A stretch of DNA of 64,000 bases from Oscillospiraceae bacterium. GTDB taxonomy: Bacteria > Bacillota > Clostridia > Oscillospirales > Oscillospiraceae. The notes under the pieces were generated by a model. It did not search any database, had not been told where the DNA came from, and saw only the letters and a program-made list of their open reading frames with translations. The DNA is taken from positions 1 through 64,000 of the forward strand of contig JAFZSD010000030.1 of NCBI GenBank assembly GCA_017619535.1. Direction: 5' to 3'. A program made the translations under genes and the position numbers. Shown here piece by piece: positions 5,992 through 52,996 of the stretch. Position 1 is the stretch's first letter; the number at the start of each line of letters is the position of its first letter.

Positions 5992-6033
5992 CAAATACTT
6001 CAAGCACAGCACAGCCGTACTTGAGTCTCAATA

Positions 6034-15888: not shown

Positions 15889-15930
15889 GTCATTAATTAA
15901 ATATCGTGGTTTTCGTTCATCGAAGAACAT

Positions 15931-16086
15931 GATAGAGGCGCGGTCATCATCAGTACCGCGGGACAAAGCCAGGCAGCCGTCCCGCGTGAAAGGGCTGACC
16001 GCCGAAGGGCATGACTCTGCCTGCGAGTCATGCACCTGGCCGTCTGCAGAATATGCAGCCGTCTGTCACATGCGTGGAGAGCTATC
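15931..16086 (+). ncRNA. lysine riboswitch (L-box) aptamer
   Basis: All conserved lysine-riboswitch segments appear in order: GATAGAGGCGCGG at the 5' side, ATCAGTACCGCG, GTGAAAGGG, GACCGCCGAAGG, CTGGCCGTCTGCA, GCCGTCTGTCA and TGGAGAGCTATC. The first and last segments close P1 (GATAG with CTATC). This closely parallels the Bacillus lysC element. Lysine binding normally stabilises the aptamer and lets the downstream terminator form, so the carrier gene should be repressed when lysine is plentiful. Confidence 0.95.
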
Positions 16087-16111
16087 ATCGGTAACATCCC
16101 TTGCAGAAAAT

Positions 16112-45262: not shown

Positions 45263-45694
45263 TCAGAGGATCGCCCTGAGCTTGTCGTCGGTGAGCGTCT
45301 GCAAGCCGCTTTCGGCTAGGACGGTCTCCGCATTCTCCAGGTCGTCCACACGGAGAATGACGTAAGCGCTCAGAGCCTCTGCGCCTGTGAACGCGTACAT
45401 GTACTCCACGTTGATCTGTGCCTTTTCAAGGGCCTGAAGGATGTTGTTGAGCGCTCCGGCCTGATCGTCCATCTTGACGGCGATGACCTTTGTCTCCATA
45501 ACGATGTAGTTGGAAGACAGCGTTTCTTTGGCCTTGTCCGCGTCGGAAACAATAAGACGGAGTATGCCGAAATCCTTTGTGTCGGCAAGGCTCATCGCGC
45601 GGATGTTGACTCCGGCGTCGGAGATGATCCTTACTGCCTCGGCCAGCCTTCCGGGGCTGTTTTCAAGAAATACTGACAGCTGCGTAATAGCCAT
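45263..45694 (-). CDS. double ACT-domain protein
   Basis: A 143-residue protein of two ACT domains (about 1-66 and 70-143). The first opens ITQLSVFLENSPGRLAEAVRIISDAGVNIRAM and the second VIAVKMDDQAGALNNILQALEKAQINVEYMYAF. ACT domains bind amino acids and regulate enzymes. The protein has no catalytic domain. It is the third gene after trpB2 and paaK, starting 27 bases after the ligase. The same pairing with phenylacetate-CoA ligase genes is common in anaerobes, so a sensor of an aromatic amino acid or arylacetate is likely, but the ligand is not known. Confidence 0.9.
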   Translation of the reverse strand: MAITQLSVFLENSPGRLAEAVRIISDAGVNIRAMSLADTKDFGILRLIVSDADKAKETLSSNYIVMETKVIAVKMDDQAGALNNILQALEKAQINVEYMYAFTGAEALSAYVILRVDDLENAETVLAESGLQTLTDDKLRAIL

Positions 45695-45721: not shown

Positions 45722-47029
45722 TCAGTCATGGAGCTTGCGCCTGTCGATGACTCTGACCGCCTTGCCTTCGCTTCTTGTGATCGTCTTGGGCGCCACGAGG
45801 TGCATCTTGGGGCCGATGCCGAGCATCGTTCTCATGGCAGCCTCGAGACTGCGTTCCCTGTTCTGGATATCAGATACCTTGTCGGAGAACTGGTCCGGAT
45901 TGAGCTCCACATAGACGTCGAAGGTATCGTTGTTTCTCTCCCTGTCGACGACGATCTGATAGTTCGGCGTATAGCCCTCCTTTAGGAGGACGGTCTCGAT
46001 CTGGCTCGGGAACACGTTGACGCCGCGGATTATCATCATGTCGTCGCTTCTGCCCATCGGCTTGCTCATCTTCACATGGGTCCTGCCGCAGGAGCATTCC
46101 TTGCGGCTGAGAGTGCAGATATCTCTCGTCCTGTATCTTATGAGCGGGAACGCCTCTTTGTCAAGAGCGGTGAAGACGAGTTCTCCCTTGGATCCTTCGG
46201 GCAGCACTTCCCCTGTATCGGGATCGATGATCTCGGCGTAGAAGTGGTCCTCGTTGATGTGCATGCCGGTCTGCTCCTCGCATTCGAAGGAAACGCCCGG
46301 TCCGCTGGTCTCGGTAAGTCCGTAGATGTCGTAGGCCTTGATGCCGAGGCTCTTTTCGATGCTCCTGCGCATCTCTTCGGTCCAGGGCTCAGCGCCGAAT
46401 ATGCCGGCCTTGAGCTTGTTGTCCTCGGGTTTGTAACCCATCTCGGCCAGCGTCTCGCCGATGTAGGCAGCGTATGACGGCGTGCAGCAGATGATCGTCG
46501 AACCCAGATCCATCATGAACTGGATCTGTCTCTCGGTGTTGCCGGAAGACATGGGGAGCGTAAGGCATCCGACCTTGTGGGAGCCGCCGTGGAGGCCCGA
46601 GCCACCCGTGAACAGCCCGTAACCATAGCAGACCTGGCAGACGTCCTCCGCCGTTCCCCCGGCCGCCACGATGGCGCGGGCGCAGCACTCCTCCCAGATG
46701 TCGATGTCGTTCTGCGTATAGAATGCGACGACGCGCTTACCGGTAGTACCGGAAGTGGAATGTATCCTCACGCAGTTCTTAAGGTCGGTCCCGAGGAGAC
46801 CGTAGGGATATGCGTCGCGGAGATCGGCTTTAGACAGAAACGGCAGAAACTTGATATCGTCCACGGTCCTTATGTCTTCGGGCTTTACGCCTTTCTGATC
46901 CATGAGATCGCGGTAGTATTTGACGTTGTCGTATACGTGCCTGATCTGCTTTCTCAGTTTTTCATTCTGGATCTCGAGTATCTTCTCGCGCGGAGCTGTC
47001 TCGATCTCCTTCTGGTAATAGTTTTTCAT
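45722..47029 (-). CDS. paaK: phenylacetate-CoA ligase (copy 1)
   Basis: A 435-residue adenylate-forming enzyme that makes arylacetyl-CoA from an arylacetate, ATP and CoA. The N terminus (IRHVYDNVKYYRDLMDQKGV) is the usual PaaK cap. The ATP loop is IHSTSGTTGKRVVAF near 91. Later motifs are YGLTETSGPG near 235, RYRTRDI and GRSDDMMIIRGVNVFPSQIE in the C-terminal lid. AAAGGAGA precedes its ATG. It lies between trpB2 and the ACT gene and falls under the aromatic leader. Run in reverse it could conserve energy from arylacetyl-CoA; run forward it supplies IorAB-type reductive carboxylation. Confidence 0.93.
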   Translation of the reverse strand: MKNYYQKEIETAPREKILEIQNEKLRKQIRHVYDNVKYYRDLMDQKGVKPEDIRTVDDIKFLPFLSKADLRDAYPYGLLGTDLKNCVRIHSTSGTTGKRVVAFYTQNDIDIWEECCARAIVAAGGTAEDVCQVCYGYGLFTGGSGLHGGSHKVGCLTLPMSSGNTERQIQFMMDLGSTIICCTPSYAAYIGETLAEMGYKPEDNKLKAGIFGAEPWTEEMRRSIEKSLGIKAYDIYGLTETSGPGVSFECEEQTGMHINEDHFYAEIIDPDTGEVLPEGSKGELVFTALDKEAFPLIRYRTRDICTLSRKECSCGRTHVKMSKPMGRSDDMMIIRGVNVFPSQIETVLLKEGYTPNYQIVVDRERNNDTFDVYVELNPDQFSDKVSDIQNRERSLEAAMRTMLGIGPKMHLVAPKTITRSEGKAVRVIDRRKLHD

Positions 47030-47109: not shown

Positions 47110-48477
47110 TTAGTCAACCTGAGGAAGCGACGCGATGCTCTTCGCAAGGTCCTCGTCGGTGGGGATGTAATCGTCCATCTCTCCGTCGTGGAACTTCTGG
47201 TAAGCGACGAGATCGAAATAGCCGGTACCGGTGAGTCCGAATACTATCGTCTTCTCCTCGCCCGTTTCCTTGCACTTCATGGCCTCGTCTATGGCGACTT
47301 TGATGGCGTGCGAGCTCTCGGGAGCGGGCAGTATGCCCTCTACTCTTGCGAACTGCTCTGCAGCCTTGAAGACCTCCGTCTGCGGGACGGATACGGCCTC
47401 CATAAGGCCGTCGTCGTACAGCTGGGACAGTATAGAGCTCATGCCGTGGTAGCGGAGACCGCCCGCGTGGTTCGGTGCCGGGATGAAACCGCTGCCCAGA
47501 GTGTACATCTTTGCGAGCGGGCAGACCATGCCGGTGTCGCAGAAATCGTATGCGTACTTGCCTCTGGTAAAGCTTGGGCAGGACGCGGGCTCGACAGCGA
47601 TGATCCGGCAGTCGAGGTCGCCGTTTATCTTGTCTCTCATGAAGGGGGCGATAAGTCCGCCGAGGTTGGAACCGCCGCCGGCGCAGCCGATGACCATGTC
47701 GGGCTTTATACCGTACTTGTTCAGAGCCGCCTGGGTCTCGAGGCCTATGATGCTCTGATGCAGGAGGACCTGGTTGAGCACGCTGCCGAGAACGTATCTG
47801 TAGCCGGGAGTCGAAACAGCGACCTCCACGGCCTCGGAGATGGCGCAGCCGAGGCTGCCGGTGGTACCGGGATGCTCGGCAAGGATCTTCTTGCCGATCT
47901 CAGTCGTCATCGACGGGGACGGAGTGACGTCGGCGCCGTAAGTCCTCATTACCTCTCTGCGGAAGGGCTTCTGCTCGTAGGAGACCTTGACCATGAAGAC
48001 CTTGCAGTCGAGTCCGAGGTAGGAGCAAGCCATGGAGAGGGCCGTTCCCCACTGACCGGCGCCGGTCTCGGTGGTCACGCCCTTCAGGCCCTGCCTCCTT
48101 GCGTAATATGCCTGGGCGATCGCGGAGTTAAGCTTGTGGGAACCGCTGGTGTTGTTGCCCTCGAACTTGTAATAGATCTTCGCCGGGGTGCCCAGCGCCT
48201 TCTCGAGGCAGTATGCCCTGACCAGCGGCGACGGTCTGTACATCTTGTAGAAGTCGTATACTTCCTGAGGGATCGGGAAATACTCTGTATCGTTGTCAAG
48301 CTCCTGCTTGATGAGTTCTTCGCAGAATACGGGGGCAAGTTCCTCGGCCTTCATCGGTTCGTGTGTTCCGGGATTGAGGAGCGGAGCGGGCTTGTTCTTC
48401 ATGGCCGAGCGGAGATTGTACCATGCCTTCGGCATCTCGTCTTCCGTAAGATAGATTTTGTAAGGGATCTTTTCCAT
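47110..48477 (-). CDS. trpB2: TrpB2-type tryptophan synthase beta chain
   Basis: A 455-residue PLP enzyme of the TrpB2 (TIGR01415) type, which joins indole and serine, or phosphoserine in some, to make tryptophan without a TrpA partner. Lys115 in GSHKLNSA binds PLP. The phosphate loop is GCAGGGSNLGG. Other signatures are TETGAGQWGTALSMA and PAPNHAGGLRYHGMS. The start at 48477 is preferred because AAAGG lies eight bases before it; an ATG three codons earlier abuts that site. No other trp gene is in the window, so the likely job is salvage of free indole. Its leader carries two leader peptides and a terminator. Confidence 0.93.
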   Translation of the reverse strand: MEKIPYKIYLTEDEMPKAWYNLRSAMKNKPAPLLNPGTHEPMKAEELAPVFCEELIKQELDNDTEYFPIPQEVYDFYKMYRPSPLVRAYCLEKALGTPAKIYYKFEGNNTSGSHKLNSAIAQAYYARRQGLKGVTTETGAGQWGTALSMACSYLGLDCKVFMVKVSYEQKPFRREVMRTYGADVTPSPSMTTEIGKKILAEHPGTTGSLGCAISEAVEVAVSTPGYRYVLGSVLNQVLLHQSIIGLETQAALNKYGIKPDMVIGCAGGGSNLGGLIAPFMRDKINGDLDCRIIAVEPASCPSFTRGKYAYDFCDTGMVCPLAKMYTLGSGFIPAPNHAGGLRYHGMSSILSQLYDDGLMEAVSVPQTEVFKAAEQFARVEGILPAPESSHAIKVAIDEAMKCKETGEEKTIVFGLTGTGYFDLVAYQKFHDGEMDDYIPTDEDLAKSIASLPQVD

Positions 48478-48530: not shown

Positions 48531-48575
48531 TCAGATGTGGCGCCAGAGTCGCCATCGCTTGGTAAGCAGGTACAT
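48531..48575 (-). CDS. second leader peptide with two Trp codons (mini-ORF)
   Basis: A 15-codon frame (MYLLTKRWRLWRHI plus TGA) lies between the terminator and trpB2. GGAGGA sits seven bases before its ATG, one of the best ribosome binding sites in the window. Residues 8 and 11 are Trp in a strongly basic, Arg-rich context. The stop lies about 50 bases before the trpB2 ATG. Translating or stalling on it could gate trpB2 initiation, or mark a second stage of control. The peptide matches no leader I know. Confidence 0.65.
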   Translation of the reverse strand: MYLLTKRWRLWRHI

Positions 48576-48603
48576 TTCTATTTCCTCCGATGTTTCCTGA
48601 TAA

Positions 48604-48639
48604 ACAAAAGATGCGGCACAGTTGATCTGTGCCGCATCT
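48604..48639 (-). terminator. attenuator terminator in the trpB2 leader
   Basis: A perfect 13-bp stem (48609-48621 with 48627-48639) with a 5-base loop, followed on the minus strand by TTTTGTTT. It lies after the first leader peptide and before the second, so it decides whether trpB2, paaK and the ACT gene are transcribed. Minus-strand CAGATCAAC, covering its upstream arm and loop, can instead pair with GTTGATTTG in leader codons 23-25. Confidence 0.9.
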
Positions 48640-48660
48640 GATTACGTGATTCAGGTTACC

Positions 48661-48753
48661 TCACGCTTCGTCGCACCGCAAATCAACCTTACCAAAAGAA
48701 TCGGTAAAGCTAAACCAGAACCAGTAAAAAGCGGTGCCGAGCGTTCTGTTCAT
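48661..48753 (-). CDS. aromatic leader peptide controlling trpB2
   Basis: A 30-residue peptide begins at an ATG with TTAGGAGA upstream. Residues 9-14 read Phe-Tyr-Trp-Phe-Trp-Phe, with more Phe at 16 and 20, so charged tRNAs for all three aromatic amino acids are sensed in one cluster. The codons before the run (GCACCGC, 48731-48737) can pair with codons after it (GCGGTGC, 48673-48679). Codons 23-25 (GTTGATTTG) can pair with the terminator arm. This is the layout of ribosome-mediated attenuation: stalling at the aromatic run frees the antiterminator strand. Confidence 0.85.
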   Translation of the reverse strand: MNRTLGTAFYWFWFSFTDSFGKVDLRCDEA

Positions 48754-48770
48754 TGCGTTTCTCCTAACGT

Positions 48771-48787
48771 GCGCTTTATCAAAGCGC
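48771..48787 (-). other. short hairpin in the trpB2 leader 5' end
   Basis: A perfect 7-bp stem GCGCTTT/AAAGCGC with a 3-base loop lies between the transcription start and the leader-peptide ribosome binding site. It could stabilise the 5' end or set the timing of ribosome loading. Confidence 0.5.
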
Positions 48788-48810
48788 TGTATTGCTGTAA
48801 CATTGTGGTG

Positions 48811-48839
48811 ATTATACAACCGTGTTTTCTGGATGTCAA
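48811..48839 (-). promoter_or_regulatory. perfect consensus sigma-A promoter for the trpB2 operon
   Basis: On the minus strand TTGACA (48834-48839) and TATAAT (48811-48816) are separated by 17 bases, matching consensus at all positions. Such a strong promoter fits a unit whose output is set afterwards by attenuation. Confidence 0.9.
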
Positions 48840-48902: not shown

Positions 48903-49271
48903 TCATTCTGACGGAAGAATCTCCAGCCAGTAGCCGTCGGGGTCGTTTATGAAATAGATCCCCATATCGGGATTCTCGTAACAGATGCAGCCCATCTCCT
49001 CGTGGAGCCGATGCGCAGCTTCGTAATCGTCTGTTCTGAACGCGAGATGGAACTCCTCTTCGCCGAGATCGTAGGGCTCGGTATGGTCTCTCAGCCATGT
49101 GAGTTCAAGGAGGAAATCGCTGCTGTCGTTTCCTATATACACGATCGTAAAGGAACCGTCGGGAGCCGTCTTGCGGGATCTTTCAGTCAGCCCCAGTGCT
49201 TTCTCGTAAAAGGCCAGAGAACTCTCCAGGTCCAGCACGTTGTAGTTTTCGTGTTCCATGGTGAATCTCAT
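48903..49271 (-). CDS. VOC-family (glyoxalase I-like) protein
   Basis: A 122-residue vicinal-oxygen-chelate protein. The two beta-alpha-beta modules are visible: MEHENYNVLDLESSLAFYEKALGL, and FHLAFRTDDYEAAHRLHEEMG ending in YFINDPDGYWLEILPSE. Glyoxalase I metal ligands correspond to the early His (MEH), a mid Glu (LLELTW), the His in FHLAF and the final Glu in WLEI, all present. A metal-dependent lyase acting on a thiol adduct is possible; the substrate is not known. It starts 30 bases after the second phenylacetate-CoA ligase. No clear terminator follows before the trpB2 promoter. Confidence 0.88.
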   Translation of the reverse strand: MRFTMEHENYNVLDLESSLAFYEKALGLTERSRKTAPDGSFTIVYIGNDSSDFLLELTWLRDHTEPYDLGEEEFHLAFRTDDYEAAHRLHEEMGCICYENPDMGIYFINDPDGYWLEILPSE

Positions 49272-49301
49272 GCGGTCCGCCTCCTTGGCCCTAAGTGCGC
49301 G

Positions 49302-50537
49302 TCATTCGTAACGCTCGTCGTATACGCGTTTGGTCTTCTTCTCGCTGCGAGGCAGCAGGCCTAGCTCGACGACTTTTACGAGAGGAGTGAATCCTATGCG
49401 GCTCTTGACGGTGGCAGCTATGCGTGACGCCAGATCCGCGAAATTCACGGAACCGTTCGTCTCGACATAGAGACGCATGGTGTCCTTTCCGTCCAGATGC
49501 GATATGCGGATCTGATACTCGCTCGAGACCTCCGGGAACTGTTTCAGGACTTCCTCGATCTGGCTCGGGAATACGTTCACGCCCTTTATCTTGACCATGT
49601 CGTCGGTGCGTCCCATTATCGTGTCTATCCTGGGATACTTGCTTCCGCAGGGACACTCTCCGGGGATTATCCTGGACAGGTCGTGGGTGCGGTAGCGTAT
49701 GAGCGGAGCGCCTTCCTTGACGAGCGTCGTTATAACTATCTCGCCCCACTCGCCGTCGGGAAGTATCTCACCCGTCGCCGGATCTATGATCTCGATGTAG
49801 ATATAATCGTCCCAGCAGTGCATTCCCGTATTGTACTTGCAGTTGATGCCTATGCCGGGGCCGTAGATCTCCGTGAGGCCGTAGATATCGTAAAGCTCGA
49901 TGCCCAGCGATTCGGAGATACGCTGGCGCATCTTATCGCCCCAACGTTCCGATCCGATGACTCCCTTCTTGAGCTTGATGCGGTCCTTAATGCCCCTCTT
50001 CTCGATCTCCTCAGCCAGCAGCAGCGCGTAGGAAGAGGTCGAGCATATGACCGTGCTTCCGAGATCCTGCATCATCGTGAGCTGCTTTTCCGTGTTGCCG
50101 GGTCCCATGGGTATGACCATGGCGCCCAGTTTTTCAGCGCCGAGCTGGAACCCGATGCCGGCCGTCCAGAGCCCGTAGGCCGGAGTGATCTGGATGCGAT
50201 CCTTATTCGTGATCCCCGCGGTCTCGTAGCAGCGTTTGAACATTATCGCCCAGTCGTCGACATCCTTCGCCGTATAGGGGATTATAACGGGAAGGCCAGT
50301 GGTGCCGGAGGATGAGTGGATACGTACGATATCTTCCTCCTTCGCCGCCATCAGTCCCAGCGGATAGGCGCTGCGGAGATCAGCCTTTTCCGAAAACGGC
50401 AGCTTCGAGAAATCCTCAGGCGTGGATACGCCTGTTATGCCTGCCGCTTCAAGTTTTTTGCCGTAAAAGCTTCCCGACCGACGCAGCCTGTCGATCTGGT
50501 CGTTGACCTGTTTCAGCTGCAATTCCGAGATCTGCAT
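49302..50537 (-). CDS. paaK: phenylacetate-CoA ligase (copy 2)
   Basis: A 411-residue adenylate-forming ligase paralogous to the gene at 45722. ATP loop IHSSSGTTGLPVIIPYT near 88, YGLTEIYGPGIGIN near 230, RYRTHDLSRI and GRTDDMVKIKGVNVFPSQIEEVL near 315-338. The start at 50537 follows AAAAGGGG; an ATG eight codons earlier overlaps the iorB stop (ATGA) and is an alternative. It sits directly behind iorA-iorB, whose product or substrate is an arylacetyl-CoA, so the two activities are almost certainly consecutive. Having two ligases suggests different acids, for example phenylacetate or hydroxyphenylacetate versus indoleacetate. Confidence 0.92.
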   Translation of the reverse strand: MQISELQLKQVNDQIDRLRRSGSFYGKKLEAAGITGVSTPEDFSKLPFSEKADLRSAYPLGLMAAKEEDIVRIHSSSGTTGLPVIIPYTAKDVDDWAIMFKRCYETAGITNKDRIQITPAYGLWTAGIGFQLGAEKLGAMVIPMGPGNTEKQLTMMQDLGSTVICSTSSYALLLAEEIEKRGIKDRIKLKKGVIGSERWGDKMRQRISESLGIELYDIYGLTEIYGPGIGINCKYNTGMHCWDDYIYIEIIDPATGEILPDGEWGEIVITTLVKEGAPLIRYRTHDLSRIIPGECPCGSKYPRIDTIMGRTDDMVKIKGVNVFPSQIEEVLKQFPEVSSEYQIRISHLDGKDTMRLYVETNGSVNFADLASRIAATVKSRIGFTPLVKVVELGLLPRSEKKTKRVYDERYE

Positions 50538-50557
50538 AGTCTTTCCCCTTTTCCAGT

Positions 50558-51145
50558 TCATTTATGTGCGCAGTCAAGCCCGTACTCCAGAGCTCTTCTG
50601 TTGAGTTCTGCATACTTTTTCGGAACCCTGCGTTCTATCATTTCCATCAGCATATCTGCCGTTACAGGCAGCGCTCCCGCTGCGATCGACGCTCCAAGAA
50701 GTATTATATTAAGGACCTTTGCGGTGCCGATCTCGCGAACGGCAGCATCAGTGTCGACGACAGTCAGTCTTCCCACGTGTTCACGAAGGTGCCCTATCAT
50801 GACTTCCGAGGAGTATCCGGATCTGACGAGAGCCTCTGTCACCGGTATAACGACCCGTGAACTTACGACCGCGGCGCCGTCTTCCTTCAGATACGGAAGC
50901 ATGCGCACCGCTTCTCCCGGCTCGAAGCCGATGATTGTGTCAGCTCCTCCGAGGGGAACCATCGGAGAATATACGCCTTCGCCGATGCGAATATGACTCG
51001 TCACGCTGCCTCCGCGCTGAGCCATACCGATCGTCTCGGCGCTCATTACGGGGATCCCGCTCTCCATAGCGGAGGCGGATATAAGTTTTGACGCGAGAAC
51101 GGTCCCCTGACCGCCTACGCCGCACAGTATGATGCCAGTACTCAT
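50558..51145 (-). CDS. iorB: indolepyruvate oxidoreductase subunit beta
   Basis: A 195-residue subunit of indolepyruvate ferredoxin oxidoreductase, corresponding to the gamma domain of 2-oxoacid:ferredoxin oxidoreductases. It begins GIILCGVGGQGTVLASKLIS and continues TIGMAQRGGSVTSHIRIG, both typical. The ATG at 51145 overlaps the iorA stop (TAATG), with GGAGGGGAAG upstream inside iorA, so the two subunits are made in step. It forms the enzyme with iorA. Confidence 0.95.
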   Translation of the reverse strand: MSTGIILCGVGGQGTVLASKLISASAMESGIPVMSAETIGMAQRGGSVTSHIRIGEGVYSPMVPLGGADTIIGFEPGEAVRMLPYLKEDGAAVVSSRVVIPVTEALVRSGYSSEVMIGHLREHVGRLTVVDTDAAVREIGTAKVLNIILLGASIAAGALPVTADMLMEMIERRVPKKYAELNRRALEYGLDCAHK

Positions 51146-52947
51146 TATTCTTCCCCTCCGATCGCTCCGGCGGGACACACCCTGCTGCAGAGACCGCACC
51201 CTGTGCACTGAGCCGTATCTATAACGGCTTTACCGTCCGGCATAGAGATCGCGGGACATCCGAGTTCCTTTATGCATCTGCTGCATCCGACGCATTTTTC
51301 CGGGCTGACGGAAGCGGGTCCTCTCCCCTTTGAGACCGCGATGCACGGGGAGCGGAAAACGATCGCCTTGACTCCCGGAAGCGCCGAGGCGCATCTGACC
51401 GCACCCACGGCCGCGTCCAGTTCGAAGGGGTCGACCGTCTCCACGAATCCAAGTCCGATCCCGCGCAGAACGCTCTCGATGCTTACGGCAGTTCCGCTGC
51501 CGCCCATCATCGTAATCCCGGTCCCCGGATGCGGCTGGTGTCCCGTCATCGCCGTGGTGGAATTATCGAGGACTATGAGAGTCATGTCGGCTTTGTTGTA
51601 TACCGCGTTCACGACACCGGGTATAGCTGAAGCGAAGAAAGTCGAATCGCCCACGAACGCGAAGCAGGAAGTATCGGGTTCGATACGGTTGATCCCCTGC
51701 GCTATCCCCAGGCCCGCGCCCATGCAGAGACAGGTGTCCACCATGTCCAGGGGCATCGCGTTTCCCAGCGTGTAACAGCCGATATCTCCGCAGAAAACCG
51801 CCTTTTTGCCTTTCATGGCGGTCTTTACGGCGTAGAAAGATGCTCTGTGGGGACAGCCCGCGCATAGCACGGGCGGCCTCACCGGAAGTTCAGGCTGTCC
51901 GGAAACGGCCTTCCTGCTCACGGGCTCTCCCATGAACGCCGAGATATCCTCCAGTACGCTGTCCACGGTATTTTCTCCTGCCGTACGGACGTCACCGGTG
52001 AGTTTTCCCCTGATCCTTACATTAAGTCCGAACTTGCCGCATACATAGACCAGAGCCTGTTCGATCACCGGATCGAGCTCTTCGACGCAGAGGACCTCGT
52101 CGAGCCCCCTGAGGAATTCGACAGCCTTTTTCTCCGGGAACGGATACGGCGTCGATACCTTGAACAGCCTCATCCTGCCGAGCCGCTCTCTGGCCTCCAT
52201 GGCGTAACCGAAGCTGACTCCTCCTGTCGCCACACCCTTCCGGCTGCCGTTCTCCTCCGGGTAGACCTTATTGATCGGGTCATCCGAAAACACGTCGCTC
52301 AGCGCGGAGTTCCGTTCGACGATCTTCTTGTGATTGGCGTTTGCCAGCCGCGGAAAGATCACCCAGCGGCCGCTGTCCTTTACGAACCCTTCGGCTGCAT
52401 GCTCCAGATACTCGCCTGCATCCTTCACGTCCACGGAAGCATAGCAGTGTGATACTCTGGTGGTCGAACGGAGGAAAACGGGCGTGCCGTATCTCTCAGA
52501 CAGAAGGAAGGCCTCCTGCACCATTTCGTAGGCCTCCTGGACCGTGGAGGGATCATAGCACGGGACTTTTGAAAAGCCCGCGTAAGTCCGCGTATCCTGC
52601 TCGGTCTGTGAGGATATGGGACCGGGGTCGTCGGCCACGAGGACGACCATCCCTCCCTTTACGCCGATGTATTCGACGCACATGAGAGGATCGGAAGCGA
52701 CGTTCAGTCCCATCTGCTTCATCGTCACCAGCACTCTGGCTCCGGCATACGCGGCTCCGGCGGCGACCTCCATGGCCGTCTTCTCATTGACGGACCATTC
52801 AACGTAGGTGCCCTCCGGCCTGTATTTCGCAGCGGTCTCGAGCACTTCCGTAGACGGCGTGCCCGGGTATCCGCAGACGAGGTCGACTCCGGACGCTATC
52901 GCGCCGAGAGCTATCGCCTCGTTACCCATCAGGAATTCTCTGTGCAT
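51145..52947 (-). CDS. iorA: indolepyruvate ferredoxin oxidoreductase subunit alpha
   Basis: A 600-residue subunit that, with iorB, interconverts arylpyruvates and arylacetyl-CoA with ferredoxin. The N-terminal pyrimidine domain opens MGNEAIALGAIASGVDLVCGYPGTPSTEVLE. The thiamine diphosphate region (about 375-460) includes CAGCPHRASFYA, GDIGCYTLG, CMGAGLGIAQG and GDSTFFASAIPG. The C-terminal 50 residues hold two [4Fe-4S] ferredoxin motifs (CVGCSRCIKELGCP, CTGCGLCSRVCP). The ATG at 52947 with GGAAGTG upstream gives the family's normal N terminus. In amino acid fermenters the enzyme oxidises arylpyruvates; in methanogens it runs reductively for aromatic amino acid synthesis. Confidence 0.96.
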   Translation of the reverse strand: MHREFLMGNEAIALGAIASGVDLVCGYPGTPSTEVLETAAKYRPEGTYVEWSVNEKTAMEVAAGAAYAGARVLVTMKQMGLNVASDPLMCVEYIGVKGGMVVLVADDPGPISSQTEQDTRTYAGFSKVPCYDPSTVQEAYEMVQEAFLLSERYGTPVFLRSTTRVSHCYASVDVKDAGEYLEHAAEGFVKDSGRWVIFPRLANANHKKIVERNSALSDVFSDDPINKVYPEENGSRKGVATGGVSFGYAMEARERLGRMRLFKVSTPYPFPEKKAVEFLRGLDEVLCVEELDPVIEQALVYVCGKFGLNVRIRGKLTGDVRTAGENTVDSVLEDISAFMGEPVSRKAVSGQPELPVRPPVLCAGCPHRASFYAVKTAMKGKKAVFCGDIGCYTLGNAMPLDMVDTCLCMGAGLGIAQGINRIEPDTSCFAFVGDSTFFASAIPGVVNAVYNKADMTLIVLDNSTTAMTGHQPHPGTGITMMGGSGTAVSIESVLRGIGLGFVETVDPFELDAAVGAVRCASALPGVKAIVFRSPCIAVSKGRGPASVSPEKCVGCSRCIKELGCPAISMPDGKAVIDTAQCTGCGLCSRVCPAGAIGGEE

Positions 52948-52996
52948 TCGATCACTTCCGTATAGTTCAGATGCATCCCGTCTCGCCCCGTCGGGA

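Follow-up and report, generated by a model that had tools for sequence, protein, structure and literature searches.

The leader in front of trpB2 in the window (the whole stretch of DNA that was analysed, 64,000 nucleotides) is very probably a ribosome-mediated transcription attenuator, a reading that rests on sequence comparison, without expression, ribosome-profiling or mutational data. In this gut clostridium, the switch appears to keep the genes behind it off unless phenylalanine, tyrosine or tryptophan is scarce. The leader is one of a family of attenuators in Clostridia that has apparently not been described before and that mainly targets DAHP synthase, the enzyme with which aromatic biosynthesis begins. 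The original prediction had read this leader as an attenuator, and that reading is supported, with the qualification that the leader is no one-off but a member of a family. The elements of the leader are as follows:

48811–48839, minus strand: promoter TTGACA-17-TATAAT, 12/12 consensus bases
48771–48787, minus strand: 5′ stem-loop GCGCTTTGATAAAGCGC between the promoter and the Shine-Dalgarno sequence, structure kept in relatives
48761–48765, minus strand: Shine-Dalgarno sequence AGGAG of the leader ORF, read from the sequence
ATG 48753 to stop 48661, minus strand: leader peptide ORF MNRTLGTAFYWFWFSFTDSFGKVDLRCDEA, 30 codons, homologues found
48731–48737, minus strand: anti-antiterminator 5′ strand GCACCGC, partner 48679–48673, compensatory changes
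48712–48729, minus strand: regulatory codons 9–14, F-Y-W-F-W-F, only aromatic-to-aromatic substitutions between close relatives
48687–48709, minus strand: pause-type hairpin CTTTACC...GGTAAGG, 7 bp, 48709–48703 with 48693–48687
48679–48688, minus strand: antiterminator 5′ strand GGTTGATTTG, supported by covariation and a partner-swap test
48673–48679, minus strand: anti-antiterminator 3′ strand GCGGTGC, compensatory changes
48620–48629, minus strand: antiterminator 3′ strand CAGATCAACT, overlapping the terminator arm and loop, supported by covariation and a partner-swap test
48600–48639, minus strand: intrinsic terminator (stem 48639–48609, 13 bp, loop of 5) with the U-rich tail TTTGTTTATC

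The consensus promoter, the 30-codon ORF with its own ribosome binding site, the Phe-Tyr-Trp-Phe-Trp-Phe run at codons 9–14 and the 13-bp terminator with a U run had all been named in the original prediction, and all are present as described. The complementarity of the two competing pairings given there, GCACCGC (48737–48731) with GCGGTGC (48679–48673) and GTTGATTTG (48687–48679) with CAGATCAAC (48629–48621), is exact. The pause-type hairpin, the 5′ stem-loop and a second mini-ORF had not been recognised. A promoter with 10–12 of the 12 consensus bases is found at the equivalent position of related leaders (n = 10), and the 5′ stem-loop is represented in relatives by unrelated sequences that, read by eye, adopt the same structure (CCGCGGGAGGTTCCCGCG, GGGCGGCTTTCCGCCC).

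Alignment of six leaders from three genera (g1, g12 and g66) revealed that the anti-antiterminator, pause hairpin, antiterminator and terminator are all kept, and compensatory changes were observed in each of the four helices. Both sides have changed at 4/7 pairs of the anti-antiterminator, at 3/12 pairs of the terminator, and in one pair each of the pause hairpin and the antiterminator, in both of which 100% of the cells are paired. In a control in which the partners were slid by 1–3 columns, pairing fell to 20–51%. The closing pair of the pause hairpin is C-G, U-G or U-A over the three genera. The sequence GTAAGGTYGATTTG of the antiterminator strand occurs in 6/6 leaders, although it is part of the ORF in g1, read in a different frame in g12 and positioned beyond the stop codon in g66; since it is kept across frames and outside the ORF, selection there acts on the RNA, not on the peptide. 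The expectation that the codon run and both pairings would persist and covary was met in the orthologous operons, with compensatory substitutions in two other genera.

Covariance model R1 was built from the six leaders and searched against 300 genomes of the window's family, and the matches were inspected by hand. The search yielded 32 leaders (L230–L262) in 29 genomes from 16 genera of one clostridial family (G335 included); because its filters were strict, the leader counts are lower bounds. Matches L256 and L258, as well as those on the reverse strand, were discarded as terminator look-alikes. Nearly all members keep the aromatic codons and the Shine-Dalgarno sequence, with the rest of the peptide diverging. 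The antiterminator strand pairs with the terminator loop of its own leader in 31/31 leaders tested (L255 left out). Swapping of partners among the 17 distinct strands cost 3.5 kcal/mol each on average, and 0/20,000 permutations reached the observed sum, which is no formal probability, since related sequences are not independent; the permutation and Fisher tests were not corrected for phylogeny. Since neither intrinsic terminators nor short ORFs are rare, the leader might be taken for an ordinary terminator beside a spurious aromatic-rich frame, with pairings due to chance. Such an explanation is hardly tenable, given that 32 related leaders carry aromatic runs, that every helix covaries and that no permutation in the swap test did as well. 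Moreover, the window contains one aromatic-rich ORF (Shine-Dalgarno sequence, 8–50 codons, at least six aromatics in eight residues), and no ORF meeting the same criteria was found in 40 first-order-Markov randomised copies of it. The full-text literature searched gave no description of a comparable aromatic leader attenuator from Clostridia, although most subscription papers were outside the scope of the search and absence is not proof.

Masked folding of the window leader indicated in silico that, as expected, the position of the ribosome selects the structure. Without a ribosome, the anti-antiterminator formed 7/7 pairs; with a ribosome stalled at W11 or W13, 7–9/10 antiterminator pairs formed, the 3′ arm of the terminator not yet being made; with a ribosome at the stop codon, 0 antiterminator pairs formed. 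The predicted states are off without a ribosome, on with a stall up to codon 13, and off at the stop. In a stall scan by masked folding, codons F9, Y10 and F12 were placed within the effective stall zone, and stalls at codons 4–8, upstream of the aromatic run, were likewise predicted to antiterminate. In equilibrium folding the finished terminator always wins, from which it is inferred that antitermination must depend on kinetics, as it does in the attenuators already known. In 5/6 leaders, the truncated RNA without a ribosome already leans towards the antiterminator, to differing extents, so that shut-off without translation is predicted for the window leader only; for g66, the antiterminator is predicted to be removed only in part by a ribosome that has reached the stop codon. 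Selection of the structure by ribosome position is, as far as these folding models go, clear in the window leader and weaker in its relatives.

In the mechanism inferred, RNA polymerase would start at about 48804, and a ribosome would follow, translating the leader. Scarcity of charged Phe-, Tyr- or Trp-tRNA would make the ribosome stall at codons 9–13 and cover GCACCGC, so that the anti-antiterminator could not form. GGTTGATTTG would then pair with CAGATCAACT once the latter is transcribed, spoiling the terminator and allowing transcription of trpB2-paaK-ACT. A ribosome reaching the stop codon would mask GGTTGATTTG or let competing helices form; the terminator would close, and the transcript would end near 48600.

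At least 18 of the leaders lie before aroF (DAHP synthase, 333–347 residues) and one before aroB (TIGR01357); the remainder precede trpB2, symporter or paaK genes, or are found at contig ends. The identity of aroF was confirmed in one case (NF006421/TIGR01361) and assigned in the others by matching N-terminal sequence. Leader peptides of aroF carry Phe and Tyr codons (e.g. ASYYFYFTD, TAYYYYYFTD and FAYAYYFTM). Specificity has apparently been retuned by codon changes on a constant RNA scaffold.

The genes behind the window leader, together with a cluster upstream of it on the same strand, are the following:

47110–48477, minus strand: trpB2, TrpB-like PLP enzyme (NF009057 and TIGR01415, above cut-off)
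45722–47029, minus strand: paaK-like phenylacetate-CoA ligase (TIGR02155, E 1e-156, below its cut-off; Pfam AMP-binding domains above cut-off)
45263–45694, minus strand: ACT-domain protein (PF19571, PF01842)
48903–52962, minus strand: upstream iorA-iorB-paaK-glyoxalase-like cluster (iorA TIGR03336, above cut-off), with a putative role in arylacetate/aryl-pyruvate interconversion

The attenuator-linked gene order is trpB2-paaK-ACT in g1 and trpB2-symporter-paaK-ACT in g12, while in g66 symporter-paaK-ACT-trpB2 stands behind leaders ending in RYWFWFYFTM. In G189, the attenuator lies directly before an apparent paaK, as read from the sequence. Outside the attenuator-linked operons, trpB2 under T-box control is typically unlinked to paaK, which does not follow trpB2 in 107/111 loci, and paaK-ACT is often found after iorA-iorB. 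Rumen bacteria are known to carboxylate aryl acetates reductively to aromatic amino acids. Taken with the gene content of the operon, this makes a salvage role plausible, and the operon is inferred to turn salvaged aromatic acids and indole into Phe, Tyr and Trp. Synthesis of Phe from phenylacetate has been noted (PMC7356843). The genomes are incomplete metagenome bins. No DAHP synthase of the B. subtilis type, the only type searched for, was found in the incomplete bins G000, G101 and G065, which suggests, within these limits, that they rely on aromatic salvage; G113 and G177 possess a DAHP synthase of this type, each with its own leader. The operon points to bacteria, many of them from the rumen, that may be without the entry enzyme of the shikimate pathway and subsist on aromatic acids produced by other organisms.

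Of 300 genomes of the window's family, 267 contain TrpB2 or a more distant relative of TrpB; the peptide-coding pattern of the FYWFWF type was detected in only 4/400 family genomes, namely the window, a genus mate (FYWYWF) and two members of genus g12 (FWWFWF). A class-wide search of 283 genomes for TGG-TWY-TGG-TTY behind a Shine-Dalgarno sequence gave no convincing match besides the window. Model R1 gave one marginal match (E 0.004) in the 80 named trpB2 loci examined, which come from Clostridia of the gut and rumen. In paaK-ACT operons with iorAB, no convincing leader was found; separately, an ORF preceded by a Shine-Dalgarno sequence (MNVHRTVYAYTFTYAFYFARR, five aromatics in eight residues) was seen at position 623 of locus L188, far upstream of iorA. 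An unrelated aromatic leader, MKLYADSKFFGFSNGWWFSREFVVPGME, followed by a terminator, was also observed before trpB2-paaK-ACT in locus L030 (RUI026, a named Clostridia bin), some 225 bases ahead of the trpB2 at 6001; it is possibly convergent and went undetected by model R1.

As an anchor, trpB2 alone was rejected: among about 110 orthologues nearly all lack the aromatic leader, and most have a T-box motif. The original prediction was to fall if orthologous operons lacked the leader. Stand-alone trpB2 genes do mostly lack it, because most of them carry T-boxes, and the orthologous operons keep it; the contrast drawn there with T-box control also holds, a T-box motif lying upstream of most trpB2 orthologues. 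Two trpB2 loci gave an Rfam T-box match above the gathering score and eight further loci a match below it (E 7e-13 or better), and the specifier was UGG in the alignments inspected. With orthologous genes under T-box control, the window leader could itself be a riboswitch or be bound by a protein (as a T-box, a TRAP target or a metabolite aptamer), with the ORF playing no part in control. This is a most improbable reading: the window leader showed no match to the RF00230 covariance model and no T-box motif, neither it nor 16 aroF/aroB loci matched any Rfam family at the gathering threshold, and the aromatic codons and Shine-Dalgarno sequence have been retained where the rest of the peptide diverged. 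Three g12 genomes (G227, G266 and G303) have T-box-trpB2 and two others the attenuator, and the two modules therefore substitute for each other within one genus, in which regulator swapping before trpB2 is testable.

A further element lies in the interval between the terminator and trpB2:

48531–48575, minus strand: second mini-ORF MYLLTKRWRLWRHI, Shine-Dalgarno sequence GGAGG 48588–48584, relatives behind T-boxes

Relatives of this mini-ORF, with a (K/R/S/Y)WR core (LTKRWR) and a Shine-Dalgarno sequence, were found in about 20 genera directly behind the T-boxes of trpB, trpB2 and putative Trp-transporter genes; all 16/16 copies inspected from the family-wide search stand directly behind a T-box terminator. 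ABC-type substrate-binding lipoproteins, which we take to be TrpX-like, are among the products encoded behind them. Trp-Arg is invariant in 31 copies, one of which (L124; true peptide MILLTKRWRHCT) was scored in the wrong frame. Five synonymous codons are used for the Arg after Trp, and the Arg before Trp is CGA in 23/26, possibly a case of slow decoding. Judged from these sequences, the peptide or the way it is decoded is likely to be under selection. The mini-ORF has been retained despite replacement of the T-box in G000, G101 and G335 and, by eye, in G057 and G139 (MFILSGIWRFGARTI, MFIFSRIWRFGARMK), and is gone in G177. The window copy has two separated Trp codons and no Phe codon, most relatives having one Trp codon, and no terminator follows it. 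A hairpin under the mini-ORF (TGGCG...CGCC) was rejected as a functional core, because it looked conserved only among the copies that precede trpB2. The mini-ORF, kept from the T-box version, probably adds a Trp-responsive step, the mechanism of which is unresolved.

The amino-acid specificity of the window leader is inferred from its codons. The claim that it senses all three aromatic amino acids agrees with the codons in g1 and g66 but not with the FWWFWF leaders of g12, which have Phe and Trp only. Trp codons occur in 10/10 leaders of trpB2/symporter operons versus 2/17 aroF leaders, the T-boxes of stand-alone trpB2 orthologues have UGG specifiers in the alignments inspected, and the downstream mini-ORF has Trp codons without Phe; the leader might accordingly sense mainly Trp, its Phe and Tyr codons being aroF-type relics of little regulatory weight. 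We regard this as possible but rather unlikely, because Phe codons are present in every trpB2/symporter leader, substitutions within the run remain aromatic, and F9, Y10 and F12 fall in the effective stall zone. Furthermore, the operon includes paaK-ACT, which is seldom found behind trpB2, and elsewhere the scaffold goes with aroF, at the head of all three pathways. We favour, with reasonable though incomplete confidence, a single RNA attenuator scaffold for aromatic supply, with Phe/Tyr leaders before DAHP synthase and Phe/Tyr/Trp leaders before salvage operons, that has replaced the Trp T-box in some lineages and left its companion mini-ORF, giving an undescribed tandem of pan-aromatic and Trp control.

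The trp, pheA and his leader attenuators of E. coli and Salmonella comprise a leader ORF, regulatory codons and competing pairings. The window leader resembles them in its regulatory-codon ORF, competing pairings, antiterminator, intrinsic terminator and stall logic. Unlike them, it is clostridial, has no sequence relation or Rfam match, serves other target genes and mixes Phe, Tyr and Trp codons in one run; in g66, moreover, the stop codon comes before the antiterminator strand. The mechanism of leader attenuators is summarised in PMC9413887. In Firmicutes, leader-peptide attenuators are known for histidine genes, some replacing a T-box (PMC2965389, PMC9413887); these are alike in mode and sometimes stand in the place of a T-box, but differ in amino acid (histidine, not aromatic), genes and sequences. 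The Trp T-box (RF00230) of the window's family governs trpB2 where it stands alone, a further trpB and presumed Trp transporter genes, and senses by direct tRNA binding, whereas the window leader, without T-box features, would do so via the ribosome.

Leader peptides of the B. subtilis rtpLP type have consecutive Trp codons and a stop adjoining the Shine-Dalgarno sequence of the gene. By these criteria the window mini-ORF does not qualify, its Trp codons being separated and its stop (48531) lying well away from the trpB2 Shine-Dalgarno sequence (trpB2 start 48477). The B. subtilis at (rtpA/yczA) operon was reportedly found by Chen and Yanofsky (2003, 2004) to have a T-box followed by a Trp-codon leader peptide. 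Relatives of the mini-ORF are likewise placed between a Trp T-box and a gene, but most copies have one Trp codon in a conserved KRWR context, not several consecutive ones; in the window, the stop is tens of nucleotides from the Shine-Dalgarno sequence of the gene, and the T-box is replaced by the attenuator. By analogy, the mini-ORF may form a second Trp-responsive tier. The two studies are cited for the at operon in PMC11255114. Elsewhere in the window, a lysine riboswitch (RF00168, 94.7 bits) is located at 15925–16092 on the plus strand.
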